Shown in pieces: positions 3,743 to 22,248 of a stretch of DNA of 24,395 nucleotides (its first letter is position 1; each line of letters opens with the position of its first letter). Under the pieces are notes generated by a model. That model saw only the letters and a list, made by a program, of their open reading frames with translations, did not search any database and had not been told where the DNA came from. Source of the stretch: a virus; the IMG/VR virus record IMGVR_UViG_3300042549_002688, positions 1-24,395 of that record. The stretch is one strand, 5' to 3'. Made by a program: the position numbers and the translations under genes.

Positions 3743-4219
3743 TTATTTTTTCCATTCACGATAAATATGTTGATATTTCTCGTTGGTTTTTATGTAGTGG
3801 GATAGAAGTCTGGAGGTAGTTCTTGATGGTTTGAAGTACCAAAGATCTGTATGCTTGAGTCTAGCTGTTTCTTTAAACCACACCCATCCAAAGAAGTAAC
3901 CTTCTGTGTGATAGTTGAAGTTGTAAATAACCTTTCCCTTCTCTTTGGTCCTTGGCCAATCTATGGGAAGATTGACAAACTCTTTCCCATCAACACCTTT
4001 CATCTTTCTTCTCTTCTTTTTGTTGATAGAAAACTCACCAAATCCAAAAGGGAGCTTTGCTCGCTCTCCAGTTTCTAGTATGTAATTTTTGAAAGACTCG
4101 TTGAATGTGTAAACAATGTTTTTCCACTCATCGAATGAAATCTTCACCTCAGGATGTTTCTTACAGAAGTTGTTGTAGTTTTCTCTGCTTGAACTTCTCC
4201 AGTCTATTTTTACTCTCAT
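3743..4219 (-). CDS. HU/IHF-like DNA-binding fold protein of the tail block, 158 aa
   Basis: Residues 28-70 contain 'FDEWKNIVYTFNESFKNYIL', then 'LPFGFGEFSINKKKRRK'. The G-x-G-x-F/I beta turn followed by a basic arm is the hallmark of the HU/IHF fold. A second conserved-looking stretch (LPIDWPRTKEKGK, then HTEGYFFGWVWF) is characteristic of the IHF-like protein found among the tail genes of crAss-like phages. The protein is strongly basic. Its ATG shares one base with the TAA of the upstream gene (TAATG), indicating coupled translation. Because it sits between two probable ring proteins it may be a virion component using an IHF-like fold, not a free DNA-bending protein. The fold call is fairly firm; the role is inferred. 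Confidence 0.62.
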   Translation of the reverse strand: MRVKIDWRSSSRENYNNFCKKHPEVKISFDEWKNIVYTFNESFKNYILETGERAKLPFGFGEFSINKKKRRKMKGVDGKEFVNLPIDWPRTKEKGKVIYNFNYHTEGYFFGWVWFKETARLKHTDLWYFKPSRTTSRLLSHYIKTNEKYQHIYREWKK

Positions 4220-4944
4220 TAGTTAGTTGGTTTAGCATTCGGTGCTTGACCATCCACTCCATCCTGGGTCATGTCTGTTTTGATTCTAAAATAGGATGCT
4301 AACAATTTTTGTGAAGTAAGTTCTAAAACTTGTTTTTCTAAATACCCAGGAACAGCGTATGGTTTATCCAATGGATTCTTGCACCATTCTTCGTTTGTAT
4401 ATTCTTTTCCACAATCACATTCTGGAAACATTATCTCATTAGGAATCTCTTCCTCAAATAAAGCAGAGATCCTTATCGTCTGAAGGAGTGGGTTACTAAC
4501 ATATAGATACCCATTCATTATCCAGTAGTAGGTTTCTCTTTTTATAATTGGAAGCTTAATCAAGTTAACATACCTGTTCACTGTGATTTCTTTAAACTTG
4601 GTTCCTCTTCCACTCAAAGCATTAATAGAATATACACCTTGAATAAGGTATTGATAATTACCTTCTGATATACGAGGGAGTTTATATCTGCTCCTTGCTA
4701 CATTACAAGGGTCTACAAAATCACAGCATTCGGAAATAGGAACTTCTACCATTTCTAAACAAGGAATGGTAGTGAACAAAGTATCAGTAGCCCAAAGCTT
4801 CCTGAGATTTGTTTCTCTTTTAATTAGTAAAAGAGAGTTGTTCTTAACTTCAGAAGCAATAGCTCTATCAGTGATAAGACTGTCCGTGGACAGAAGCTTA
4901 TGCATTGAGCGTACATCTGAAACTAATTTTCTTAATGTTGACAT
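4219..4944 (-). CDS. Virion ring/connector protein of crAss-like type, 241 aa
   Basis: The N-terminal part (residues 1-60) is helical ('SDVRSMHKLL', 'IASEVKNNSLLLIKRETNLRK'), followed by beta-rich sequence with paired cysteines (SECCDFVDPC) and 'YQYLIQGVYSI'. I recognise this arrangement from structural proteins encoded next to the metallophosphoesterase in crAss-like phages, where connector rings are encoded. There is no catalytic motif, signal peptide or membrane helix. The gene overlaps both neighbours by one base through TAATG junctions, so it is co-translated with the metallophosphoesterase and the IHF-like gene. The assignment to a specific ring is not possible from sequence alone. Confidence 0.55.
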   Translation of the reverse strand: MSTLRKLVSDVRSMHKLLSTDSLITDRAIASEVKNNSLLLIKRETNLRKLWATDTLFTTIPCLEMVEVPISECCDFVDPCNVARSRYKLPRISEGNYQYLIQGVYSINALSGRGTKFKEITVNRYVNLIKLPIIKRETYYWIMNGYLYVSNPLLQTIRISALFEEEIPNEIMFPECDCGKEYTNEEWCKNPLDKPYAVPGYLEKQVLELTSQKLLASYFRIKTDMTQDGVDGQAPNAKPTN

Positions 4945-6194
4945 TATAAGTATTGTTTGAATATGTTTGTCATTCCATCATTTTCGTCTATAAGGAATGC
5001 AGTAACTTCAGCTTTCGCACACGTGTATCCGTTCTTTTCATCCCATGAACTTTTAGCATTAGAGAAAGCTGGAATTTGATAAAACTTAATTCCATTAAAA
5101 TCTTGACTTAACTCATGGTGTTTATCTCCTGTAAATATGTAGAACTTAGTATGATAGGACCATTCATCTCTATATTCCATTGGGAAGATTGCAGCTAGCT
5201 TTGCTGGCTTCAATGCATCACCATGGTTAAACATTAACGCACTTTCTCCAAAGCTTATGTATTTTCTATATCTAGGAGAACAATCAAAGGTTAACCTATC
5301 AGTGCTTCTGAAGTAGGTTTGCAACCATGTTGTTAGATGCCATCCTACATACTCATCATGGTTTCCTGCTACATATACAACATCTACGTTATTTGCGTTC
5401 TGTAACAAAAGAGAGATCATCTGAACTTCATATTCACAGATCCTTTGGAAAGAATCATGATATGTTAGGATGTTAGTTTGTGGAGTTCCTTTTGTTGTAG
5501 TGTTTGTGAACTCACTATTAAACTCATCCGATCCAATGATGTAAATTACTTTTTCGAGATTATTTGACAGAGTAGCTTGGTTCAAAATTATTTCCACCTT
5601 CTCAAGTATGCCACCAAATCTATCGTTTATATTGTTATCACCATAAACGTCAAACTTGTTAAGATGTGAGTCTTGTTTATTAATCACAAGACAAGCCTCG
5701 ATTTTTCCAAAATTGTATTTAGGAGCAAGGATATCTGGAGAACATGGTTTGTATTCATTCAAGAAATCTACAAAAGCATTCTGAAATATTTGACTATTGG
5801 TTTTCTTACCAAGCCAAGCTTTCACTTGCCAATGTGGATTTTCACCATTACCCCAGTAGTTCTGGACATATTTAGTTATTTCCCACTTACTTGTATCAAT
5901 CTTACACTTTTCAATAAGATCCTCCAGAGAACGAATTTCTTCTGGGCTATTGAACACTATCTCACCTGTACCCTTAATTAAATCTTCTTCAAACCTTACA
6001 ACAGCTTCTTCAAGCTGATCTATGTAATTCGAAACCTCTGCTTCATTCCTCAACAATTCACTTTTTCTAATTTCCTTTAACAACGCATCCACCTCATCTT
6101 CTGTAATCCCTAGCTTTTCTGCGTAAAACTTCTTGCTTTTTTTCCAGTTTAGCATTTGTTGCAACTGTTCTAATAGATGCTGGTTCCCTACCAT
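4944..6194 (-). CDS. Calcineurin-like metallophosphoesterase with N-terminal helix-turn-helix-like region, 416 aa
   Basis: The C-terminal two-thirds carries the metallophosphoesterase metal-binding series in order: D175-S-H177, G221-S-D223, G277-N-H-D280-E281, N323-H324-G-D326 and G356-D-K-H359-H360. This is the two-metal centre that hydrolyses phosphomono- or phosphodiesters. The second motif is G-S-D-E where G-D is usual, and the last is G-D-K-H-H where G-H-x-H is usual. Residues 10-45 ('KKFYAEKLGITEDEVDALLK') look like a helix-turn-helix of the kind found in small terminases and regulators. The gene is first in the tail operon, about 20 nt after a promoter at 6222-6254. Metallophosphoesterase genes at this position are known in crAss-like phages; their substrate is unknown to me. 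Confidence 0.85.
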   Translation of the reverse strand: MVGNQHLLEQLQQMLNWKKSKKFYAEKLGITEDEVDALLKEIRKSELLRNEAEVSNYIDQLEEAVVRFEEDLIKGTGEIVFNSPEEIRSLEDLIEKCKIDTSKWEITKYVQNYWGNGENPHWQVKAWLGKKTNSQIFQNAFVDFLNEYKPCSPDILAPKYNFGKIEACLVINKQDSHLNKFDVYGDNNINDRFGGILEKVEIILNQATLSNNLEKVIYIIGSDEFNSEFTNTTTKGTPQTNILTYHDSFQRICEYEVQMISLLLQNANNVDVVYVAGNHDEYVGWHLTTWLQTYFRSTDRLTFDCSPRYRKYISFGESALMFNHGDALKPAKLAAIFPMEYRDEWSYHTKFYIFTGDKHHELSQDFNGIKFYQIPAFSNAKSSWDEKNGYTCAKAEVTAFLIDENDGMTNIFKQYL

Positions 6195-6221
6195 TGGACT
6201 AGATTTTAGTTAAAATTACAA

Positions 6222-6254
6222 CAAAGATACAAACTATTTTTGAAATTCTCCAAA
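6222..6254 (-). promoter_or_regulatory. Bacteroidota-type promoter for the tail operon
   Basis: Read on the minus strand, TTTG (6254-6251), 21 nt, then TATCTTTG (6229-6222) fits the Bacteroidota primary-sigma pattern TTTG-N19-21-TAnnTTTG. The predicted start of transcription is about 20 nt before the metallophosphoesterase ATG at 6194. It lies just after the terminator that ends the preceding operon, which makes it a sensible second late transcription unit. The spacing is at the long end of the range. Confidence 0.6.
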
Positions 6255-6255
6255 T

Positions 6256-6298
6256 TTATTTAATTAAATAAGTTATCTATAATAACCAAGTTGGTTAT
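6256..6298. promoter_or_regulatory. Two perfect dyads directly upstream of the tail promoter
   Basis: TTATTTAATTAAATAA (6256-6271) is a 16-nt perfect palindrome ending two bases from the -33 box. ATAACCAAGTTGGTTAT (6282-6298) is an 8-bp inverted repeat around one central base. Both lie in the short gap between terminator and promoter. Possible roles are binding sites for a phage late regulator, or an AT-rich upstream element for RNA polymerase. The symmetry is seen directly; the function is inferred. Confidence 0.45.
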
Positions 6299-6307
6299 AA
6301 TTTAAAC

Positions 6308-6337
6308 AAAAAACTCCCAGGGTAGAAACCCCAGGAG
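6308..6337 (-). terminator. Strong intrinsic terminator at the end of the small virion protein operon
   Basis: On the minus strand a 9-bp stem (6337-6329 with 6322-6314, including G-U pairs) around the loop TTTCTA is followed immediately by six T residues (6313-6308). It lies 38 bp after the stop of the 109-aa gene. A second 7-bp hairpin (6365-6359 with 6346-6340) precedes it, so transcripts pass two tandem hairpins before the T tract. Confidence 0.8.
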
Positions 6338-6375
6338 ATACCCTGTAAAACCAACAAAACAGGGTTTTTGATAAT

Positions 6376-6705
6376 TTATGGTGCAGCAGTAGTTGTAGTG
6401 GTAGTTGTATAAGCCACACAACCATTTACAATCTGACAGAAGGCTGTAAGAAGAGAAACGTTTGTTGCAATTGTTTGTAATAATGTTTGGGCTAATATGA
6501 TAGGATCAAGCTCATTATCAAGCTTTTCTAAAACAACATTCAAATTGTCACCAGTTTCCACTCCTGAATTAGGTAGTGTAGGACCATTGTAACATATTAA
6601 ATTTGTTGATATTGGATAGCCAGCAAACCATCCGTTGTTACACTTTCTTGGATATACAGTGTTGACAACCAATGGATTACATGGTGAACCTGGAACACAT
6701 GCCAT
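6376..6705 (-). CDS. Small Cys-containing virion protein with Thr-rich C-terminal tail, 109 aa
   Basis: No enzyme motif is present. Residues 35-65 read 'LICYNGPTLPNSGVETGDNL', then a Leu-rich helix. The pattern C/Y-x-G-x-x-x-P-x-x-G-V-x-x-G-D-x-L-x-x-V recurs near the N-terminus of the next gene upstream (6724-7851), so the two proteins share a small module. The C-terminus is an uninterrupted run of seven threonines ending in AAP. Such Thr tails, also seen on the 385-aa structural protein in this window, suggest an exposed virion surface protein. It is the last gene before the tandem hairpins and terminator. The structural role is inferred from location and composition. Confidence 0.6.
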   Translation of the reverse strand: MACVPGSPCNPLVVNTVYPRKCNNGWFAGYPISTNLICYNGPTLPNSGVETGDNLNVVLEKLDNELDPIILAQTLLQTIATNVSLLTAFCQIVNGCVAYTTTTTTTAAP

Positions 6706-7860: not shown

Positions 7861-8127
7861 TTATTTATTTATTAATAGTTTAACTCTACTAGCTATTTGT
7901 TCTACAGAAAAGGATTCTGCATACTCTGGGCTACAATACTTGTAAGTTAGTATCCTTTTGTAATTCAAAAGATCCCAAATCACTGTTCCTAGAACAGGCC
8001 AATTTAATTCATAAACAATATTATTGTATTCATTATTGGCTAGTTCTGTAAGCTTGCAATCAATGTCTGCAAGTAAAACAGGAACACTAGAACAATCGAC
8101 ACAATTTGTAAGCCTTGGATATAACAT
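7861..8127 (-). CDS. Small conserved-looking virion-cluster protein, 88 aa
   Basis: Function not recognised. The protein begins with a Cys-x-x-Cys (NCVDCSS) and then 'VPVLLADIDCKLTELANNEYNNIVY' and 'LLNYKRILTYKYC', a mix of helices with regularly placed hydrophobic residues and no membrane segment. I have the impression of similar short proteins among virion genes of Bacteroidota phages, but cannot name one. It lies between the collar-domain fibre gene and a tiny zinc-ribbon-like gene. Its first 41 bp overlap that gene's end, so translation is probably coupled. A virion assembly or attachment role is inferred from location only. Confidence 0.6.
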   Translation of the reverse strand: MLYPRLTNCVDCSSVPVLLADIDCKLTELANNEYNNIVYELNWPVLGTVIWDLLNYKRILTYKYCSPEYAESFSVEQIASRVKLLINK

Positions 8128-8239
8128 TATTTATTCTTTTATTAGCTTGTTTAATAGCGTTGTTGCAAGCTGAACATAGTCCGTTTATCAACTGACAGCC
8201 ACATCCCACTTTAACACCGCAGTTTCTACAGTTTGCCAT
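8087..8239 (-). CDS. 50-aa Cys-rich zinc-ribbon-like protein
   Basis: An ATG at 8239 opens a 50-codon frame ending at TAG (8089-8087). The product starts MANCRNCGVKVGCGCQLING and continues with a second C-x-x-C, giving C4-x2-C7, C13-x-C15 and C22-x2-C25, followed by a basic helix (KQANKRIN). This is the pattern of a short zinc-binding knuckle. The ATG lies one base after the stop of the 187-aa gene (8241), and the frame overlaps the next gene by 41 bp, so it fits the tight packing of the operon. Similar tiny 'MxxCxxCG…CGC' proteins are common in Bacteroidota phages in my experience. Function is unknown: a chaperone-like or nucleic-acid-binding role is possible. Confidence 0.72.
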   Translation of the reverse strand: MANCRNCGVKVGCGCQLINGLCSACNNAIKQANKRINNVISKAYKLCRLF

Positions 8240-8240
8240 A

Positions 8241-8804
8241 TTAATAGAAATTGTTTACATAGTTATTACCATAGCAATTACATTTGTTTGCTATGAATTG
8301 GTTTAACATCCTATTTGCTTGGTTGTACAGTTTATTAGCTGTAGCAATAGCACAATTATTTGCAGCAGCAATAGATCCTTGTATAAAGAAATAGATGCTG
8401 TTTAAATCTACCATCTGTTGTTTTCTAATAGCTGCATCACATTCCATCATATCAAGTTTCATAAATGCACTATCAAACTTCTCTTGAAGTTGGTCAACAC
8501 GCATTATTGTTTTCTGTACAAAGTTTTGATATGCAGGAGCAACAGAGTATTTAATATAATAAACCCCATCAGGAAGTGGTAACAAAGCATCACCAACTGA
8601 AGTTAGTCCTAATGAAGCAGAAGTGTAAATATTGAAGTCATTTATGTTAAATGGAAGGCTGACTAGACCAAATCCTGGAACATCTATTTCTATTGTAGGA
8701 GCACTGACAGGGGGAGAAGCTGGGTAGGTTGATGCATCAGCAATACCCAACGTTTGTACGTTGTACGTAGGAATTACTAAAAAGTCTAATTTCAAGTCTG
8801 CCAT
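8241..8804 (-). CDS. Virion structural protein of crAss-like type, 187 aa
   Basis: Residues 1-100 are beta-type with Pro/Gly-rich turns (ASPPVSAPTIEIDVPGFG, then 'LPLPDGVYYIKYSVAP'), like an immunoglobulin-like or fibre-head domain. Residues 100-165 are helical (MRVDQLQEKFDSAFMKLDMM) with cysteines, ending in an Asn/Tyr/Cys-rich tail. It is encoded directly after the hairpin that follows the 385-aa structural gene and just before the zinc-ribbon gene. Such beta-domain plus helical-tail proteins are typical of head or tail decoration proteins. The precise role is unknown. Confidence 0.55.
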   Translation of the reverse strand: MADLKLDFLVIPTYNVQTLGIADASTYPASPPVSAPTIEIDVPGFGLVSLPFNINDFNIYTSASLGLTSVGDALLPLPDGVYYIKYSVAPAYQNFVQKTIMRVDQLQEKFDSAFMKLDMMECDAAIRKQQMVDLNSIYFFIQGSIAAANNCAIATANKLYNQANRMLNQFIANKCNCYGNNYVNNFY

Positions 8805-8819
8805 ATTCTTCTAAATAAA

Positions 8820-8860
8820 TAAGCCAGAGGATTTGAGAAGATCCTCTCACCTCTGGCTTA
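8820..8860 (-). terminator. 11-bp hairpin after the 385-aa structural gene (terminator or RNA-processing stem)
   Basis: TAAGCCAGAGG (8820-8830) pairs perfectly with CCTCTGGCTTA (8850-8860) around a 19-nt loop that can itself pair further. On the minus strand it is followed by TTTATTTAG, only moderately T-rich. It may terminate partially, or stabilise the upstream message, so that the 385-aa protein is made in excess over the genes beyond. Confidence 0.55.
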
Positions 8861-8891
8861 GGTTATATGATATTGTTTCTACTACTTCTTA

Positions 8892-10049
8892 TTAAGGAAC
8901 AAGAGTGGTAGTGCTTGAAGTTGTAGGCCATATAGTGGTAGTTGTAGAGGTAGTGCTTACACAAGCATTATCACTAGCAACAAGACCAAGACCAGCTTCA
9001 AGAACAGCTTCAATTGCAGCACTCAACGCTTGAGGAGCAGCAATGATCACCATGCTATCTTCTTTAATATAATCACCCCAAGAATAAGCAGATTTGTCAT
9101 ATTCGTTGAACTTGATGTAGTAGGTATCGTAGGTAGTACCATCAGAAACCCAAGACTCAAAGTTCTCGTTATAACCTGCCATTCTGTAAAGATGCTTCAA
9201 GTAACCTGCTTGATAGCTGTAGAAGTTCTTTTCGAGCTGGATAATCTCATCAGAAGTACCTGAAGGATAAGAAGCACGTTGAGTAACTTGAGCATCAGCA
9301 ACAATGTTACAAGCATCTGCTACAATGAAGTCAGCAGTAGTAGCTGGTCCACTGTACACGAAAGTACGGAACCACATTCTGTCATACTCCCAAGGGAATG
9401 CAGCAACATCACAAGGCTGACCATACTTGGTAAGAGGCTTACCAGAAATACGGAGGATAGCGTTTGCATCGTTACCAATTCTTTGGAATTGATAGAAATC
9501 GTTAAAGTTGATATTGTCTGGGTTGTTACCAGGAGCTTGAAGAGTCAATTGAAAAATAAACTGATCAATCAATGCAGGAACATCAACATTAACACAAGGA
9601 TCACCACCACACTCACAACAAGGAGCTTGAACTGTTACAGAGCGAGTGAAACCATTGAAATACAATGTATCAAGGTAAGAAGAATGTGCACGAAGTGTAA
9701 GTGTTACAATATCACCACACTGTACATTCCAACCAGATACATCTGTTACTTGTGTAGCAGGAAGAGGACAACCAGTCACCTTGTACCACTCAGTAACGTT
9801 AGATTTACAAGTACCATCAATACAACCAGCGATCTTGTCAGAACGCTTTGAACCTTGAAGATATGTGTTTGTTCTACCTTGAGCTAAATAAAAGTATGGT
9901 TTAGCAGCGATGTTACCAGCGTTTGCAACACTGTAATCACTTCTAAAGATACCGAATTGACCTGCGGTCAAGTTTTGCGTAGAACCAGAGCTAGGTAGAG
10001 TGTTTCCTACTGGCACTACGAAAAGCGTAGTTAATGAGAAATCAGCCAT
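8892..10049 (-). CDS. Probable major virion structural protein with Thr-rich tail, 385 aa
   Basis: No enzyme motif. The N-terminus (MADFSLTTLFVVPVGNTLPS) and a run of beta-rich sequence, with 'YFYLAQGRTNTYLQGSKRSDKI' and a cysteine cluster at about residues 147-157 (PCCECGGDPC), suggest an extracellular-style folded virion protein. The C-terminus is a low-complexity Ser/Thr tail (STTSTTTTIWPTTSSTTTLV). The coding sequence has a more even base composition than its neighbours and is followed by a stable hairpin, both compatible with high expression. An auxiliary capsid, collar or tail protein is plausible. No family name can be given with confidence. Confidence 0.6.
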   Translation of the reverse strand: MADFSLTTLFVVPVGNTLPSSGSTQNLTAGQFGIFRSDYSVANAGNIAAKPYFYLAQGRTNTYLQGSKRSDKIAGCIDGTCKSNVTEWYKVTGCPLPATQVTDVSGWNVQCGDIVTLTLRAHSSYLDTLYFNGFTRSVTVQAPCCECGGDPCVNVDVPALIDQFIFQLTLQAPGNNPDNINFNDFYQFQRIGNDANAILRISGKPLTKYGQPCDVAAFPWEYDRMWFRTFVYSGPATTADFIVADACNIVADAQVTQRASYPSGTSDEIIQLEKNFYSYQAGYLKHLYRMAGYNENFESWVSDGTTYDTYYIKFNEYDKSAYSWGDYIKEDSMVIIAAPQALSAAIEAVLEAGLGLVASDNACVSTTSTTTTIWPTTSSTTTLVP

Positions 10050-11951: not shown

Positions 11952-13505
11952 TTAGAACTGTGGGATTTCCTCAATAAGAACTGTACGAGACAAATCCTCA
12001 ATGAATACATCGCAACGATCTTTCATCCAAATTTCATAACCAGGGAACTTGTTAGCAGAGCTCATACCCTGAGACTTAGCAAAGCCTAAGTGGTGACGAG
12101 TTCCATCAATATATCCCCAAGTCATGGAAGGTGCTCCTTTCATTCTCACTTCACGGATGTTGTTCACCATTGAACCATCGCTCATTGGAGATACATCAAA
12201 CACCATGAATACAGGAGTAGATTTTTTATTCTGACCGAATTCAAGGTTAGATTGTGGAAGATCCAACTCTTTCAAGTGAATCAACTCAACACGACCAGTC
12301 TCACGGGTAACCATTGCATCGAATGCAAAGTTATAAGTGATATGCTGACCTTCGCCTTGCATATAACGATTTCCAGAATCAGCCATGAAGGTAAGACCAC
12401 TGTTCAAAGCGTCATTCTTCAAAGCTTGTTGGAATACATCAAATCCAGCTTCGTTAGTGTACATTTTAACTCTACGATCTTTAACATCAACCCTTCTGTA
12501 GAACAAATCACCAAATACAGAACGAATCAAGTTAGCAGAGAATTCACCACGATTATATTGTACCAAGTTACCGTTGTTACGCATTCTGTGATAAACACCA
12601 GCAGAAGTACGCTTCAATTCTTGCTTGCTACCATTTGTTTTAACAGTGCCTGGCTTAGCCCAAATCATACGCTTAACTTTCAATTCAAGCATAGACTTAC
12701 GCATCCAGAACTCGATGAATGGTTCCCATTTAACATCGTTTCTTGTAAGAGGAAGTTGATTCCTACGCTGTGGAGCATAAACAAGGATGTCAAGAGGCTT
12801 ACCAGAAGCATCACGCATCATTTTGTCATCAGCCCACTCAGTGATCTTGTGCTCAAAACCATATGCAGAACCTAAAGATTCAAACATAGTGATTTGCTCA
12901 CCAAGACGAGGGAGACCAAGCAAATCTTGATCGAACTCACCAATAGCAGCATCAACAAGCTCAAGTTCAATACCATACTGCAAGAAAGTAGGAGATACGA
13001 AATCTACAGTAGGATTGTCACTGATAAGAGTGAAAGAATAAAGGAAGCCCATGTTCCAAGGAACTGGATCCTTGATAACATAGAAACGAGGACCATACTG
13101 ACGAGAACCAACAGAAATGATAGCGTTCTTAGAGAACTCATTGGTATCAAGTACCAATTGGAATTCTTGACCATCGATACCAGGCTTAGACAGCTCAGCT
13201 GTAGAAGTAGGGATGTCAATGATCTTTGGGAACTTGTATGGAACTGCAACTTGCCATTTCCATGCATCACTGTTGTTGTCAATGTAATAAGGGGTTGACT
13301 TGTTGATCATGTCCAAGAAGTCATTGCTATAGAGGGAGCTCTGAGTATAGAGACTGATGATCTTTTTGTCATAGTCAGCTGGCTCAGTTGAGTGGAAGCT
13401 CTCCAGGTGGTTAGCATCGGTAAGCTTACCAACTGCACGCTTATCCATAGAAGCCACCCTAGCATACGTAAATCCAGTTAAACCTGGGATTGTTTGAATT
13501 GCCAT
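11952..13505 (-). CDS. Major capsid protein, 517 aa
   Basis: Length and sequence fit the crAss-like major capsid protein, which has an HK97 fold and assembles the icosahedral head. The N-terminus (MAIQTIPGLTGFTYARVASM) is followed by an extended arm with 'LESFHSTEPADYDKKIISLY', then beta strands and a long domain with 'QRRNQLPLTRNDVKWEPFIE'. It ends in 'RDCVFIED'-type strands. There is no scaffold-like acidic region, because the scaffold is a separate gene immediately upstream (gap 36 bp). Codon composition is more even and richer in C than in the neighbours, as expected for the most highly expressed gene. Strong hairpins follow the stop codon. The family call rests on sequence recognition and on its place after scaffold, portal and TerL. 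Confidence 0.85.
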   Translation of the reverse strand: MAIQTIPGLTGFTYARVASMDKRAVGKLTDANHLESFHSTEPADYDKKIISLYTQSSLYSNDFLDMINKSTPYYIDNNSDAWKWQVAVPYKFPKIIDIPTSTAELSKPGIDGQEFQLVLDTNEFSKNAIISVGSRQYGPRFYVIKDPVPWNMGFLYSFTLISDNPTVDFVSPTFLQYGIELELVDAAIGEFDQDLLGLPRLGEQITMFESLGSAYGFEHKITEWADDKMMRDASGKPLDILVYAPQRRNQLPLTRNDVKWEPFIEFWMRKSMLELKVKRMIWAKPGTVKTNGSKQELKRTSAGVYHRMRNNGNLVQYNRGEFSANLIRSVFGDLFYRRVDVKDRRVKMYTNEAGFDVFQQALKNDALNSGLTFMADSGNRYMQGEGQHITYNFAFDAMVTRETGRVELIHLKELDLPQSNLEFGQNKKSTPVFMVFDVSPMSDGSMVNNIREVRMKGAPSMTWGYIDGTRHHLGFAKSQGMSSANKFPGYEIWMKDRCDVFIEDLSRTVLIEEIPQF

Positions 13506-13541: not shown

Positions 13542-14789
13542 TTAAATGAACCAAGAATTAGGCTTGCTTGATTTACTATTGCTAGATTTCACTGAAGATT
13601 TGGAAGCTTGTCTAGCTACCTCACCAAAAAGATCATTTGACTTCTTGGTAATTCCTGTTTTCTGAATTGTGGATAGTGTTGGATCTTTCTCAATTATCTT
13701 AAGAAGAAGAGCAACCTTCACCTTCATTTCATGATTTTCAGGACGCTTCAGTTCTAGTATTGTACGGTCAAAGTCTGTAAGTGTTTCTCCAGACGATGTC
13801 TTATACTTATCTACTAGAAGGAAATCTTGTAGTTCGCTAGCAAGTTTTGGGTTTAAAGGAATACCATCAAACTCTTTTTGTTTGAGCTTATCCTGTAACA
13901 CCGTTTGTACATTAGCAACATATTGCTGTTTGTACGCTTGTTGTTGTTGTAATTGTTTCTCTCTTTCCTGTTCCATTTGTTGGAGCTTTGCAGCTTCCTT
14001 CTTAACAAGCACTTTGTGGTGCTTTGTAGCAACAGTTTCGAGATCACCATAGTTTTTCAAACGCTCAACTTCTGTTGTAATATCTTCAGGATCAAATCCT
14101 TGATCAGCTAAAGCTTGCTTGATGATTGACACTTGATTATTCTCTTGTGACAAATCCATCTCTGAAAAACTCTGTATTTGATTATATGTGCCGAAATATT
14201 CCTTAGGGTCAACACCCTTTACAAAGATGGCATCAAAGGCTTGTTGGTAATCTTCACCAAACTGACCAATGAAATTATTCACCACCTCAATTGCACCTTT
14301 TTTCTTTTCTAGGTTGAATCTCTCAAGAAATTCCTCAGGAGTAGATACTGGTGTATCTTCCTCATCATCTTCTTTTGAGAAGACTCCTAGTTTAAAAAGG
14401 TCTCTAGATAGAGCTGTGAACTGACTAACTGTTTCTTCTTCCTCATCACTTCCTTCTTCTGAAGATTCTTCAGTCTTAGGAGTTGTGGGTTTTTTAACTT
14501 CTTTAGTATCAGCTTCTTCCTCTTCTTCATCATCATCTGCATATAAAAAACTCTGTATGTCAACCTTCTCTTCCTCTTTCTCTTCCAGAGGAGCAGGGGT
14601 ACCCTTTACAGCTTTCTTTTCAGGAACTGATGGAGTTGGTTCATCGATATTTTTAATGTCGTCAGGAGAACCTGTGGCGGTTTCAGGAGACATCAGATCG
14701 TTCAAAAGATCTGCATTACCCATTCCCATTTCCATTGTGTTCTCAATGCTGAAGTTTCCAAATGATGGATTATCTAGATTTTCGGCCAT
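13542..14789 (-). CDS. Capsid scaffolding protein, 415 aa
   Basis: The first 150 residues are extremely acidic and low in complexity (runs such as DDDEEEEEAD and EESSEEGSDEEEE), with Pro-rich linkers. The middle is a Gln/Glu/Lys coiled coil (QQMEQEREKQLQQQQAYKQQ, near residues 270-290). The last 40 residues are basic and Ser/Lys-rich (SKSSVKSSNSKSSKPNSWF), suitable for binding capsid subunits. Acidic body, coiled coil and basic C-terminus directly upstream of the capsid gene is the standard profile of a phage scaffold. It is the first gene after a promoter at 14819-14849, giving a scaffold-capsid unit. No protease motif is visible. Confidence 0.8.
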   Translation of the reverse strand: MAENLDNPSFGNFSIENTMEMGMGNADLLNDLMSPETATGSPDDIKNIDEPTPSVPEKKAVKGTPAPLEEKEEEKVDIQSFLYADDDEEEEEADTKEVKKPTTPKTEESSEEGSDEEEETVSQFTALSRDLFKLGVFSKEDDEEDTPVSTPEEFLERFNLEKKKGAIEVVNNFIGQFGEDYQQAFDAIFVKGVDPKEYFGTYNQIQSFSEMDLSQENNQVSIIKQALADQGFDPEDITTEVERLKNYGDLETVATKHHKVLVKKEAAKLQQMEQEREKQLQQQQAYKQQYVANVQTVLQDKLKQKEFDGIPLNPKLASELQDFLLVDKYKTSSGETLTDFDRTILELKRPENHEMKVKVALLLKIIEKDPTLSTIQKTGITKKSNDLFGEVARQASKSSVKSSNSKSSKPNSWFI

Positions 14790-14860: not shown

Positions 14861-14890
14861 CTATATTGCTCAATATTCGAGATAATATAG
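14861..14890 (-). terminator. Hairpin after the SPFH gene, weak terminator or processing stem
   Basis: CTATATT (14861-14867) pairs with AATATAG (14884-14890), and the inner CTC (14869-14871) pairs with GAG (14879-14881). It lies between the SPFH stop codon and the scaffold promoter. There is no T tract after it on the minus strand, so complete termination is doubtful. Confidence 0.4.
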
Positions 14891-14907
14891 CATTATTATT
14901 TTTTACT

Positions 14908-15438
14908 CTAATCAAGTTTGTTTAGAAAAGAGTCGTTTATTATCCTGAAACTGCGTATAGGAGCTATGTCTGTAAGGGTCACTTGCTGAATATCAACACC
15001 CCACTTTCTAGCCTCAACCCTCACCTTCTTTGTAAGAACAACATCAATTTCAGGATCAACGCATTGTTCTAAAGGAAGTGATATGATAATGTTCTTTATA
15101 ATGGACTGTGTCATGTCAGCCAAAGCATCCTGAGCATCAAACACCTCAAGAAGAAAAACCTTTACATCAGATATCTTATATTTAATCACTCCTTTCACCA
15201 CAATGTTCTGTTTATCCTGTGTGTACAAGGACTGTGGAGCAAGACTGAGTGTAGTTACTACCACATGCTGTGATATAACGTCATCAAATATTGGAAGTTT
15301 CACGTGGAACCCTGGTCCTAAAACTTTCTTGAACTTACCGTTTCTTAGAAGAACAGCTTGCTCATAGTCAGGAATTATCACAGCAGGTATGATGTAGTTC
15401 CACCACGAAGTGAGCAGATCTATGAGTTTATCAAACAT
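14908..15438 (-). CDS. SPFH/band-7 domain protein (stomatin/prohibitin-like), 176 aa
   Basis: A hydrophobic stretch at residues 8-22 (LLTSWWNYIIPAVII) is followed by the SPFH signature: 'VLLRNGKFKKVLGPGFHVKL' (29-48), 'TQDKQNIVVKGVIKYKISDV' (73-92), a helix around 'DALADMTQSIIKNIIISLPL', and 'GVDIQQVTLTDIAP' (147-160). Cellular relatives (stomatin, prohibitin, HflK/HflC) sit in membranes and form ring-shaped cages, often regulating proteases. This copy is short: it has the membrane anchor and SPFH domain but not the long C-terminal coiled coil. It sits between portal and scaffold, its start sharing a base with the portal stop (TAATG). Other tailed phages often carry the head maturation protease here. 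A head-assembly platform or a membrane-acting factor are both possible. Confidence 0.75.
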   Translation of the reverse strand: MFDKLIDLLTSWWNYIIPAVIIPDYEQAVLLRNGKFKKVLGPGFHVKLPIFDDVISQHVVVTTLSLAPQSLYTQDKQNIVVKGVIKYKISDVKVFLLEVFDAQDALADMTQSIIKNIIISLPLEQCVDPEIDVVLTKKVRVEARKWGVDIQQVTLTDIAPIRSFRIINDSFLNKLD

Positions 15439-18029
15439 TATTTAGGTTTTTTAGTAGCTCTACCTTTGGCATTCTCTTTAGCAATAGCTAAATCGTTTGC
15501 TTGGTTTTCTCTAGCCACTTGAAGTTTCTCTCTTTCTATCTGCATCTTATCGTTAGCTAGTTTATTCTTAGCCTGAATATCACTCATCCTAGCTTGGTAT
15601 TCTCTGGCAGCTTTAGTGTTTTCTGCAGCTAACTTGCTGATTTCCAATACATCAGGAACTCCTGAAGCATCTTCATCAGCCAAGCCCATACCCATAGATT
15701 TAGACTCAGCATTGATCAGGGCAATCTCTTTCTTATTGATTCTATCAAGCTCAGCCTGGTAGTTGTCATTTGCAATCTTCTGCTCATTAGCAAGCTGTGT
15801 TTGTTCCATTTGAGCTTGTGCAATCTGAGCCTGTTGCTCCATTTGCTGTTGTTTCTGTTGCATTTGCTGATCTTGCAATTGCTCTTGTCTATCCTTAAGT
15901 TGCTTAAACACCTTCTTCATCTGTCTTAGAGAATCAGTAGAATAAAGCTCAATGATATCATGTAGAGAACCACCGTTCTGAATAACAGCTTGAGATAAGC
16001 CTCTGATTTCTTCAAATGATTTCTTGTCTTCAGGTCTATTAGTTGCAAACACTTTCAAATCACGGAACTTAAGATCTGTACCATTCACCTGTACAAATGC
16101 TGATTCTCCATCTGAAGTGATGTATGAAATGGTTGACTGAGGCTTTTTGCTTTCTATATAAAGCGAAGCATCAATGATTGCTTGGTACAATTGACCAAGT
16201 ACGTATTCATGTGCCACAAACAATGGTTCCGTTTGAGCATAAGACTGTTGAATTGCAGCTTGTGTACCTGTAGCAGATTCACTAGCTGAAACAGAACCAA
16301 GTCTTTGCTTAGACATACCAATCAATTCCCAACACTCATTCTTAAGTTGTATAGCAAGTTCATATCTAGATTTAATCTCCTGCGTACGTGTGAGGTCAAT
16401 ATCCCTAAACTGATTAAAGCTAGAAGGACTCTTTAGGTTTTCTGGAGAGTCATCAATAAACACCACACCTCTGTTTCTTGCTTCCATTTCCCAAATGTCA
16501 AGAGCATCTTGGGCATCACCATCCTTTGGAACAGGAACGTGTCTAATAGATGTCAAATACACCTTACCCACTTCTTTCTCAAGGAGCTTGTAAAGCTGGT
16601 TCATACATACATTGTACAACACTTGGAAAGGCTTCATAAGGTCAACTAGGGATTTAGCCTCTGTGTTTTTCACCTCGTAGTTGATACCAATGATTGGACA
16701 ATAGTTAAGAAGCTTGAATGGTTTTATATGATAGATGTCTGGTCCAACCTTGATTCCCTGATACCATTGATTAATCCATCCCCACTCCAAGCTTTGCTCT
16801 GTAGGAACAGTGCCACTCTTGTAGTTTTCATCCACTAGTGTAGATTGCTCATTACCTAATTCATCCAAGTAGATGAGCTTACCTATCTTTTTCTTACTCA
16901 ACCAATAACATCTCACTACCACATACTTGTATCCAAATGAAGACACATTTGATGTTAGTCCTAAGAAATCTTTTAGACCATCGTTGTTCTCCTTCATTTC
17001 ACTTTCGATAATCATACGAGTTTGAAGGACTAGTGGATCATATGTGTCATATGTCACCGAATCAATACCTGGTGTTACGTTAGGATTACCTAGGTTGGAT
17101 TCACGGACATTAATAAGTCCGTAGTCTTGGAGAGAACTTCTGAGATGATCTATTTCTTCTTTTGTAAGATCAGGAACACTTTCAATGATTTCAGAAAGCT
17201 CCATCACTTGCACTGTACCAGCAGCATAAGCACCTTGTGCTCTTCCTGTTGGATCAGAAATGTATTTTCTATCTGGTGTTGTTAAAAACCAGGTGTTCTT
17301 AGGATTGGCCACCTCAATGTTATACCCCACTTTAGAGTTGTCCTCATAGATGTGGTAGTATTCACGAGCAGAAATAAGCATGTCTCTGAATGCATCTTCA
17401 GACTTCTCCTTGACATTAAACTCAGCTTTTGTAGCTGTAAGAATATGGTTAGCCCACTTCTCAGCTGCTGAAGTGTAAGAATCAAGTTCATCTTTCACGT
17501 CCTCAAGAGTCATCTGTTGAAGTTGCTCCTCGTCTATTTCTTGCCCTTCCATTGCAAACTTCTCTTGTATCTTTTGTTTAGCCTGAGTGATGACAAAGTT
17601 TTGAAGAATCTCTGTTTTAAAATCAAGTTCTTCAGACTGACTGTCTTCATCAAATGCTTTTATTCTATATCCATCAGGACGCTTTGTAATCTCACCAACA
17701 AGTTCATTGATTGGTGTTGTTATAATAGAATAGTGCTTCACGTACGAGGGAAGCTGTAAATCAGCTGTAAGCATATCTGTAAAGCTTCTCACCTGAGGTT
17801 CTTGGTAGAAATCCTCCATGCGAAGAATACCCTTGACAAGATCATAGTTCTTTACAAACGTGTCTCTATTTTTTACATACTCAGCATAAGCTTTGTTGGC
17901 AAAATAGTCCATTGTGTTTTTAATCCAGCTTTCGTCCTTTTTCTCCTTCTCAGTTTTAAATTGATCAGGGAAAATGTTCAGATAGGCGTATCTGATAGTA
18001 GCGTCTTTTGTATATCTTATTATTGCCAT
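15438..18029 (-). CDS. Portal protein, 863 aa
   Basis: Position directly after TerL, with a one-base TAATG overlap, plus size and sequence identify the crAss-like portal. This is the twelve-subunit ring at the unique capsid vertex through which DNA is packaged and released. The N-terminal third contains long helices (MDYFANKAYAEYVKNRD, KHYSIITTPINELVGEI). The core has 'YCPIIGINYEVKNTEAKSLV' followed by 'MKPFQVLYNVCMNQLYKLLE', a long helical stem region. It also has 'MSKQRLGSVSASESATGTQA', the Ser/Ala/Thr-rich loop typical of such portals. From about residue 710 the chain becomes a Gln-rich coiled coil (QEQLQDQQMQQKQQQMEQQA), compatible with the long barrel or crown of P22-type portals. The ATG at 18029 is the natural start. 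Confidence 0.85.
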   Translation of the reverse strand: MAIIRYTKDATIRYAYLNIFPDQFKTEKEKKDESWIKNTMDYFANKAYAEYVKNRDTFVKNYDLVKGILRMEDFYQEPQVRSFTDMLTADLQLPSYVKHYSIITTPINELVGEITKRPDGYRIKAFDEDSQSEELDFKTEILQNFVITQAKQKIQEKFAMEGQEIDEEQLQQMTLEDVKDELDSYTSAAEKWANHILTATKAEFNVKEKSEDAFRDMLISAREYYHIYEDNSKVGYNIEVANPKNTWFLTTPDRKYISDPTGRAQGAYAAGTVQVMELSEIIESVPDLTKEEIDHLRSSLQDYGLINVRESNLGNPNVTPGIDSVTYDTYDPLVLQTRMIIESEMKENNDGLKDFLGLTSNVSSFGYKYVVVRCYWLSKKKIGKLIYLDELGNEQSTLVDENYKSGTVPTEQSLEWGWINQWYQGIKVGPDIYHIKPFKLLNYCPIIGINYEVKNTEAKSLVDLMKPFQVLYNVCMNQLYKLLEKEVGKVYLTSIRHVPVPKDGDAQDALDIWEMEARNRGVVFIDDSPENLKSPSSFNQFRDIDLTRTQEIKSRYELAIQLKNECWELIGMSKQRLGSVSASESATGTQAAIQQSYAQTEPLFVAHEYVLGQLYQAIIDASLYIESKKPQSTISYITSDGESAFVQVNGTDLKFRDLKVFATNRPEDKKSFEEIRGLSQAVIQNGGSLHDIIELYSTDSLRQMKKVFKQLKDRQEQLQDQQMQQKQQQMEQQAQIAQAQMEQTQLANEQKIANDNYQAELDRINKKEIALINAESKSMGMGLADEDASGVPDVLEISKLAAENTKAAREYQARMSDIQAKNKLANDKMQIEREKLQVARENQANDLAIAKENAKGRATKKPK

Positions 18030-20068
18030 TATGTAAAAAGTTTACGTTTGTATTTACTTGATCCAAACATTCCTGGTGAGTTGCTATCAAACAACTTTAT
18101 ACCACCGTTCCTATTTGTGAATAATGCTTTCACTCTTTCATCACCACTCCCCCCAACTCTACCCATAATTGGGTCAAGTTTGAGAGCCTGTGCTATTGCT
18201 AACTCTGCTGCTACAATACGGTCAAAGTTTCCTTGATCATGGTATTGTATTATCTCCTCAAGAAGAACTGGGTCAAACACTTTATTCACCCCTGTCACTT
18301 CTCTAATTAGTTTTCCGTCATCATTCTTCTCTGTGTGTATCACTTCTTCCAAATACTTCTTTAAGCAGTTGTGAAGATAGTCAATTATCTTTTGAGAACT
18401 CCTATGTATACCATATTCACGTTTAACTGTGGTGTTTGGTACAATTTCCATCAACCATTGAGGTTGTTTCTCAAGATAGTGAGCGTCTCCTTTTGCTTTC
18501 ATATATTCTATAAAGGAGATGTCATCATTTTCACAGAGCGTTCTAGCATTGTAATACTTGATAAGCAAACGAGCTTGTTCTTCCCAAACATCCTTCTTAT
18601 CAGGTCTAGCTACATACGAAGCTACGAACATATCTTGATATTTCTCACCTGTAAGGTCATGCATTCTTTTATAAACATAGACAGCACCTAAAGATGAGCT
18701 ATACGCAGATTGTCCTTGTCTGTAAGGATCCACTCCTGCAACATACAATCCATAAGGAGGGTTTGTTACAGGGAATTCATATATTACAACAGGAGCATCC
18801 TTCATATCACTATTCTTGAGGGGGAAGTTTGTAATGGGCTGTTTGTCTGAAAACTCATGCCCTATCTTATCTCCATCAGAGAATAGAACAACAGAAGTAC
18901 CTGTACGGTCATTCTGAAGCACCCTAGTCTTTTGCCTCTTGGCAGCTTCAATATCAAATATATTAGTGTCCTCGTTAAGGAATATGTCATCAACTTCTAT
19001 TGGATAGTACATCTTCTCTTTAAGATAGGCTATCCTGTCTCCAGCTTTCTTTAATCTGTCAAGGTTGGCTGTAGTTATTTCTTTTGCCTTTTCCTCATTG
19101 CTAACCAACATAGGAATCTTATGTAGACCACTATCAGCAGGTTGCTCGAGGAATGCACCAAGGCTGGAATCTTCTTTTGCTTCCATCCTGTATTTGTAGG
19201 AAATAAACAGTCCGTGTGTTCTGGATGTATCTTTTTCGTTATTATAAGTGAGAAAATTAAAATTGTCTACATCGAACATTAAGCTCTTTGCATCCATAAA
19301 TCTTTTCATATCACCACCTGTACCTGTAAGGATAGGAGAACAACCCCATCCAAAAGGTGTGGTAAAACCAGGCACAGCTGCCTGAAATCCTCTGAGAAAA
19401 TTCCCTTTACCAATCTCATCAATAATTAGTTTTCTTGGTTTTGTACCTGCAATTGCTTCCTCATTATTACCCTCATCAAGGTTACGTACGAGGATTTGAG
19501 AGAACGGAATCCTTTCTCCCCCCTTGGTTTTAATACCTAGTGTCACTTGGTTCTTCCAATTATCCTCAATTCTCTGCCATCTCCAAGCTTCTGGAAGGAA
19601 GTTTAATCCTTTATCAATCTTATCTGTAATCAGTTTAATATCGGGAGCATTTAGTCCAGATATGATGTTCTGAGAGTTCTCATCAAAGGTGGCTCCCCAA
19701 GCAACATATGAACTCTCAATAACAGACTTAGCCAAACGTCTAATTCCTAGAATGACCAGCCCTTTCTTTTCCTGCTGAGCTCTATCTATCTCGTTGGTTA
19801 TAATCCACTCATTATCCCTGAGCAGGGGGTTGGCATATTTCTGGGAGATTCTTCCTCTCTCATCCACAATATCCACCTCTGTATTCCAGAAGTTCAAATG
19901 CCAATACAAAAAGGGGTTGATATACACCCCGTTCATCATGGCTCCATTCAAACATAGTTCCTTGTGATAGTTAAAGAATTCTCTAAACTCTTCACTTTCT
20001 TTATCTGGAATTCTAGGCTGATTGATGTACCAATCTTTATAATCTATAGACTGTAATTCGTTTATCAT
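18029..20068 (-). CDS. terL: Terminase large subunit (TerL), 679 aa
   Basis: An ATPase plus nuclease two-domain protein that packages DNA into the head. The ATPase shows a variant Walker A, G108-IRRLA-K114-S115 (VILGIRRLAKSVIESS), a Walker B 'KLIIDE' with D217/E218, and a coupling motif 'ILTGTGG' (246-252). The RNase H-like nuclease domain begins with 'YVAGVDPYRQG' (D445), followed by candidate acidic metal ligands E511 (TLCENDD) and D614 (GNFDRIV). The C-terminus ends in a Ser/Gly/Lys-rich tail. Length is normal for the family. The start overlaps the stop of the preceding 111-aa gene by 4 bp and the stop is fused to the portal start. The call is secure; exact nuclease residues are read by eye. 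Confidence 0.92.
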   Translation of the reverse strand: MINELQSIDYKDWYINQPRIPDKESEEFREFFNYHKELCLNGAMMNGVYINPFLYWHLNFWNTEVDIVDERGRISQKYANPLLRDNEWIITNEIDRAQQEKKGLVILGIRRLAKSVIESSYVAWGATFDENSQNIISGLNAPDIKLITDKIDKGLNFLPEAWRWQRIEDNWKNQVTLGIKTKGGERIPFSQILVRNLDEGNNEEAIAGTKPRKLIIDEIGKGNFLRGFQAAVPGFTTPFGWGCSPILTGTGGDMKRFMDAKSLMFDVDNFNFLTYNNEKDTSRTHGLFISYKYRMEAKEDSSLGAFLEQPADSGLHKIPMLVSNEEKAKEITTANLDRLKKAGDRIAYLKEKMYYPIEVDDIFLNEDTNIFDIEAAKRQKTRVLQNDRTGTSVVLFSDGDKIGHEFSDKQPITNFPLKNSDMKDAPVVIYEFPVTNPPYGLYVAGVDPYRQGQSAYSSSLGAVYVYKRMHDLTGEKYQDMFVASYVARPDKKDVWEEQARLLIKYYNARTLCENDDISFIEYMKAKGDAHYLEKQPQWLMEIVPNTTVKREYGIHRSSQKIIDYLHNCLKKYLEEVIHTEKNDDGKLIREVTGVNKVFDPVLLEEIIQYHDQGNFDRIVAAELAIAQALKLDPIMGRVGGSGDERVKALFTNRNGGIKLFDSNSPGMFGSSKYKRKLFT

Positions 20069-22219: not shown

Positions 22220-22248
22220 ACAAACACTAATGCTATATTATGCTCAAA

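Follow-up and report, generated by a model that had tools for sequence, protein, structure and literature searches.

We found that a crAss-like phage encodes, directly after its portal gene, a short SPFH (Band_7) protein without the C-terminal coiled coil, and that close relatives repeatedly lack the gene or carry other small genes in its place. We consider it very probable that the gene is an optional accessory and not part of the core head machinery. SPFH genes are known in phages; what appears to be a new variant is the short form, together with a site at which SPFH and zincin-like genes seem to be exchanged. Throughout, the window is the whole stretch of DNA that was analyzed, 24,395 nucleotides of IMG/VR record IMGVR_UViG_3300042549_002688.

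Identity and setting of the SPFH gene

The gene occupies positions 14908..15438 on the minus strand, where an ORF with an ATG start encodes 176 amino acids. The Pfam Band_7 profile matched residues 21-160 (14959..15378, minus strand) with an E-value of 2.1e-23 and a score of 83.7 bits (cut-off 23.6), and sequence matches in the PDB were to stomatin (1.2e-11), QmcA (2.6e-8) and HflK (9e-6). HflK was also the top NCBIfam match, but at 62.5 bits it stayed below the curated cut-off of TIGR01933 (159.4). An AlphaFold model was built from 42 relatives (mean pLDDT 74), and a Foldseek search with it gave stomatin as the top PDB fold match (E = 2.7e-12), followed by HflK/C, QmcA and prohibitin; the mouse stomatin SPFH crystal structure 4fvj agreed with the model to 2.1 A across 111 columns (TM 0.84 by target length). 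We conclude that the product belongs to the SPFH/Band_7 superfamily and has an SPFH1-SPFH2 domain by both profile and fold. The first-pass annotation, which had read the gene as SPFH/band-7 and proposed a structural comparison with stomatin, HflK and HflC, was right on this point. The SPFH fold was the only one found in the 176-aa protein, which showed neither a protease fold nor a catalytic motif (HExxH was restricted to the alternative cassette described below), and a PADLOC search for defence systems gave no match. A single scan of genome contigs for a cellular source returned only a Band_7 match, at 28%, in a Ferrovum MAG.

The virus belongs, by its protein families, to the crAss-like phages (Crassvirales). 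Its capsid (PF23898 Crass_capsid, 2e-27), ring protein (PF25702 CrAss_Ring_2, 9e-18) and portal (phrog_6547, 1e-102) bear out the crAss-like label given to it earlier. The closest named phage that we found was Leptolyngbya phage Lbo-JY46 (PP438436.1), whose capsid and portal are 28% and 31% identical to those of the window, so crAss-like structural genes exist in a cyanobacterial phage. In Lbo-JY46 the portal gene and the next gene have no gene between them, and a 273-aa SPFH frame lies elsewhere, around 3938-4483. Two proteins of the window, encoded at 6376-6705 and 8892-10049, carry threonine-rich C-terminal tails (TTTTTTTAAP; TTSTTTTIWPTTSSTTTLVP).

On the minus strand, the run of genes that includes SPFH is headed by the terminase large subunit gene (18029..20068; phrog_6681, 8e-88), followed by the portal gene directly upstream of SPFH (15438..18029; PF16510, 3.6e-14; phrog_6547, 1.2e-102). 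Beyond SPFH lie a putative scaffold gene (13542..14789), so called from position and composition only, which matches phrog_16294 of unknown function, and the major capsid protein (MCP) gene (11952..13505; PF23898 Crass_capsid, 2.2e-27). The order terminase-portal-SPFH-scaffold-MCP was kept, as far as the contigs reach, in the first 72 related IMG/VR contigs (65-97% identity where matched), and the place between portal and putative scaffold to which attention had been drawn is conserved across a large clade. Median identity among relatives was far higher for the capsid (11952-13505; 96%) than for the portal (83%), SPFH (73%) or putative scaffold (71%).

The portal and SPFH genes meet in a TAATG junction at 15436..15440 (minus strand), in which the stop codon of the portal gene and the start codon of SPFH have one base in common. 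This junction, from which translational coupling to the portal had been proposed, is conserved as TAATG or near-TAATG in most relatives, and full-length SPFH copies are nearly all exactly 176 aa. An extra insert of ~200 nt separates portal and SPFH in L020, L021, L025 and L233, with an ORF of ~65 aa where it was read. Median dN/dS was 0.07 for SPFH (from only 10 usable pairs), 0.11 for the portal, 0.06 for the capsid and 0.19 for the putative scaffold; judged by these sequence comparisons, the SPFH gene is under purifying selection.

A helical start and no coiled coil

In the cage-forming SPFH proteins (HflK/C, stomatin, prohibitin) a C-terminal coiled coil builds the wall of the cage, and attachment of SPFH proteins to the membrane is by a transmembrane helix, a hairpin or a lipidated surface. 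The chain of the window protein stops ~15 residues past the SPFH domain and the coiled coil is therefore absent, just as the first-pass annotation had stated; in nearly all relatives the chain likewise ends shortly past the domain.

An N-terminal hydrophobic anchor had also been described, and here the claim stood only in part. A helix is present: residues 2-17 (15388..15435, minus strand) are helical in the AlphaFold model, and their hydrophobicity has a periodicity of 100 degrees, as in a helix. The hydrophobic moment of this segment was 0.57 in the window protein, a value equalled in 0.1% of composition shuffles, and averaged 0.63 in the 42 relatives. The best 19-residue hydropathy, however, averaged 1.34, compared with 2.24 for HflK and 3.36 for HflC, and hydropathy gave no transmembrane segment; the helix is amphipathic. 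Besides the 42 relatives, four divergent homologues and a protein of a T7-like phage keep the amphipathic start. The simplest reading of the sequences and the model is that the segment would lie in plane as an amphipathic helix and make contact with membrane or protein, rather than act as a transmembrane anchor. The protein thus shares with stomatin, QmcA and HflK-HflC, its best PDB and Foldseek matches, the SPFH1-SPFH2 fold and signature residues, but differs from them in being viral, in its length of 176 aa and in lacking the coiled coil, the C-terminal cap and a predicted transmembrane segment.

Turnover of the gene beside a conserved portal

Searches with the portal and the capsid added relatives both with and without SPFH; since SPFH itself was among the search queries, the carrier counts are not prevalences. 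In the tree built from 149 non-redundant portals, a single crown clade, within which the gene was lost several times, took in most carriers; SPFH presence changed 15 times, with at least 10 of the changes forced by well-supported branches. The deep lineage L222 holds a divergent SPFH copy that shares 32% identity with the window protein. Carriers and non-carriers also occurred as sister pairs with portals 92-94% identical (L164/L044, L275/L060 and L198/L017); in such non-carrier sisters the site is empty or is taken by a cassette of two genes, one of them for an HExxH zincin-like mini-protein. Band_7 was absent from the whole contig in all 14 SPFH-less crAss-like relatives of 98-123 kb, and each of 10 crAss-like carriers had exactly one Band_7 gene. 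None of 491 other gene families tracked SPFH presence in 12 near-complete genomes, a comparison (6 vs 6) of low power.

The survey of relatives gave a divided answer: the position is kept in a large clade, but the gene was gained or lost at least 10 times, partly in the manner of the sporadic insertion that the first-pass annotation had set against its own reading. An essential head component is ruled out by the repeated absence or replacement of the gene beside a near-identical portal and capsid. Nor was the proposed role in head building supported, given this turnover among portals 92-94% identical, the lack of any SPFH gene elsewhere in the 14 SPFH-less relatives and the close homologues outside the head block in other phages. 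This case shows that even a conserved head operon may house an accessory gene open to exchange, and so a place next to the portal is no proof of a structural role. Because relatives lose or swap the gene, the SPFH protein probably serves the phage as an optional means of acting on the host membrane.

Where SPFH is missing, the site is either empty (~140 nt) or filled by other small genes, often coupled to the portal likewise. One replacement consists of two ORFs of 78-84 aa, of which the second has an invariant HExxH...P...E motif; another is a 92-aa relative of this HExxH mini-protein (L227), and a third is a different HExxH protein of 142 aa (L150; phrog_1365). Further replacements are 74-aa ORFs and HNH-like genes. 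The HNH-like genes were seen at the portal/scaffold junction in L051 and L169, and in L115 the portal was matched as two ORFs, possibly reflecting an intron or other insertion.

The HExxH mini-family has at least 314 IMG/VR loci (one member at L188:10230-10484), and 58 of the 80 loci kept lie outside the portal/scaffold context. The model of the mini-protein (pLDDT 89) is similar to IrrE/PprI, abylysin and selecase; the Foldseek probability is ~0.9 or more for the best matches but the E-value only 0.04, and no profile match to the mini-gene was significant (M78, DUF6782 metallopeptidase, ~0.007; phrog_87 metallo-protease, 0.02). The likeness to the minigluzincins (abylysin, selecase) and to IrrE/PprI concerns the predicted fold of the mini-protein and not the SPFH gene. 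The mini-protein was found in none of 10 complete SPFH carriers. As a pattern, the site appears to alternate between the SPFH protein and zincin-like mini-proteins, which does not imply a common purpose. The first-pass annotation had remarked that tailed phages often encode the head maturation protease in this place; the SPFH protein has no protease fold or motif, but a zinc-peptidase-like mini-gene does occupy the same site in some relatives.

The cassette site and the putative scaffold gene are separated by a conserved element, TAATGCTATATTAT (14882..14895, minus strand), of which the window has a second exact copy at 22228-22241 (plus strand). Ahead of the putative scaffold gene, at a distance of ~108 nt, exact matches to its 13-base core, TAATGCTATATTA, were found in 75 of 75 SPFH loci, 7 of 7 zincin-cassette loci and 46 of 66 SPFH-less loci, and the core has only 1-2 copies per near-complete genome. 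The element divides the cassette from the scaffold/MCP block, of which it is probably a regulatory or promoter element. The accessory gene ends the upstream terminase-portal unit, and an insertion there would disturb neither block.

Relatives in other phages

A deeper search returned coil-less relatives of 173-174 aa with the same helical start. The crAss-like contig L446 has its coil-less SPFH gene TAATG-coupled to the gene for tail ring protein 1; in crAss-like phages the short SPFH gene stays beside vertex genes, whether portal or ring protein 1. In L444/L445 and L451-L453 it lies among small genes without a structural match, and models of the crAss portal and ring 2 gave no match in these contigs. 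The T7-like phage ctgrD200 (MW202733) encodes a prohibitin-like protein that is likewise a short SPFH protein with an amphipathic start, directly after the terminase large subunit; it differs from the window protein in sequence (24% identity), in phage type and in having no portal coupling. A wider search for proteins of the ctgrD200 type gave no close relative. Since coil-less relatives occur among non-structural genes and in a T7-like phage, the short SPFH family is not tied to the head. Full-length SPFH proteins of ~400 aa are also encoded in L444/L445 and in the 256-kb contig of L452; the pair in L444, of 174 and 414 aa, lies at 6001-6525 and 8043-9287. A tblastn match, MT835563, was dropped, as it proved to be a normal QmcA-like gene of 301 aa on an apparently bacterial contig.

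Annotations of phage SPFH genes go back to at least 2006, with the T4-like phages 44RR, Aeh1 and RB43 (PMC1524935). SPFH proteins were detected in purified virions of phage CBB (CBB_29; 8 unique peptides, 29.6% coverage; PMC5259590) and of a Vi01-like phage (gp200, 3 retrieved; PMC10892097). A Vi01-like SPFH gene adjoins a superinfection exclusion gene (PMC3220722), and the SPFH gene of Rhizobium phage RHEph10 lies near rIIA/rIIB. These full-length proteins resemble the window protein in that a tailed phage encodes an SPFH domain, but the CBB_29, Vi01-like and RHEph10 proteins are ~260-290 aa long and their neighbours, where seen, are not portal or capsid genes. Our literature search, which covered few subscription journals and preprints, found nothing relevant that linked crAss-like phages with SPFH, stomatin or prohibitin, and neither the coil-less form nor the strict portal coupling nor an SPFH/zincin exchange site. 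The same literature gave no tested function for phage SPFH genes and, in line with what the first-pass annotation had said, no described function for one at this position.

Possible role of the SPFH protein

The explanation that we favor, tentatively, is that the protein is a peripheral-membrane accessory which the phage can do without; probably made late, it would dock on host SPFH assemblies and alter access to FtsH-type proteases. Its late synthesis, its membrane position and its host-directed role are what we infer, and the SPFH/FtsH-modulating step is possible although somewhat doubtful; the first-pass annotation had likewise thought of FtsH, from which the protein might shield phage proteins. 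The protein would be produced late, in an amount tied to the portal, and would sit at the host membrane, on its inner side. Through its SPFH domain it might bind laterally to host assemblies (HflK/C-, QmcA- or stomatin-like), or to phage-encoded ones where present. Insertion into a cage is conjecture; a coil-less subunit there would add no coiled-coil wall, and substrate access to FtsH-type membrane proteases would change late in infection. E. coli HflK/C forms a chamber around FtsH that controls substrate entry (PMC12048511), which, with HflK as the top NCBIfam match (below cut-off), speaks for this explanation, and the phages of L444/L445 and L452, with coil-less and full-length SPFH proteins together, show the pairing that a co-assembly model would lead us to expect. 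Against a purely host-directed role, the crAss-like SPFH gene stays beside neck and tail genes, which such a role does not explain.

The same neighbours, always portal or, in L446, TAATG-coupled ring protein 1, would suit a minor virion protein that is located at the portal/tail vertex and touches the host membrane when the DNA enters. The detection of the CBB and Vi01-like SPFH proteins in purified virions, together with the vertex neighbours, speaks for a virion role. We nevertheless regard it as unlikely, as the gene is missing or swapped in sisters with portals 92-94% identical and close relatives lie among non-structural genes.

A slightly less likely alternative is that the protein acts alone on the host membrane, as a phage-made patch or scaffold affecting superinfection, membrane integrity or lysis timing, and leaves host SPFH cages untouched. 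The amphipathic helix would serve this well and no phage partner gene would be needed. The location of other phage SPFH genes near rIIA/rIIB (RHEph10) or a superinfection exclusion gene (Vi01-like) points the same way, but this neighbourhood argument is drawn from distant, full-length proteins. Quite improbable is a broader scheme in which coil-less SPFH proteins are phage-specific subunits that enter host or their own full-length SPFH cages, open or cap them and redirect late membrane proteolysis, and in which such a subunit and a small zinc peptidase take turns at the portal/scaffold site because both would tune proteolysis at the same stage.

The first-pass annotation had proposed that the protein keeps the portal, or procapsids at an early stage, tethered at the membrane. 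Portal coupling and a predicted membrane-binding helix would fit a tether, but the gene is dispensable in many relatives with a near-identical portal and capsid, and homologues lie away from the portal; because of this dispensability we think it very unlikely. That the gene is a decaying or selfish insertion and has no function, as its sporadic presence might suggest, is hardly credible against a fixed length of 176 aa and a dN/dS of ~0.07 from the 10 usable pairs.

Phage SPFH genes are widespread, and the present family is a minimal natural version of them. Because it offers many matched carriers and non-carriers, the family gives a handle on what an SPFH domain does free of a cage and on whether phages tamper with membrane quality control of the FtsH/HflK-C type.
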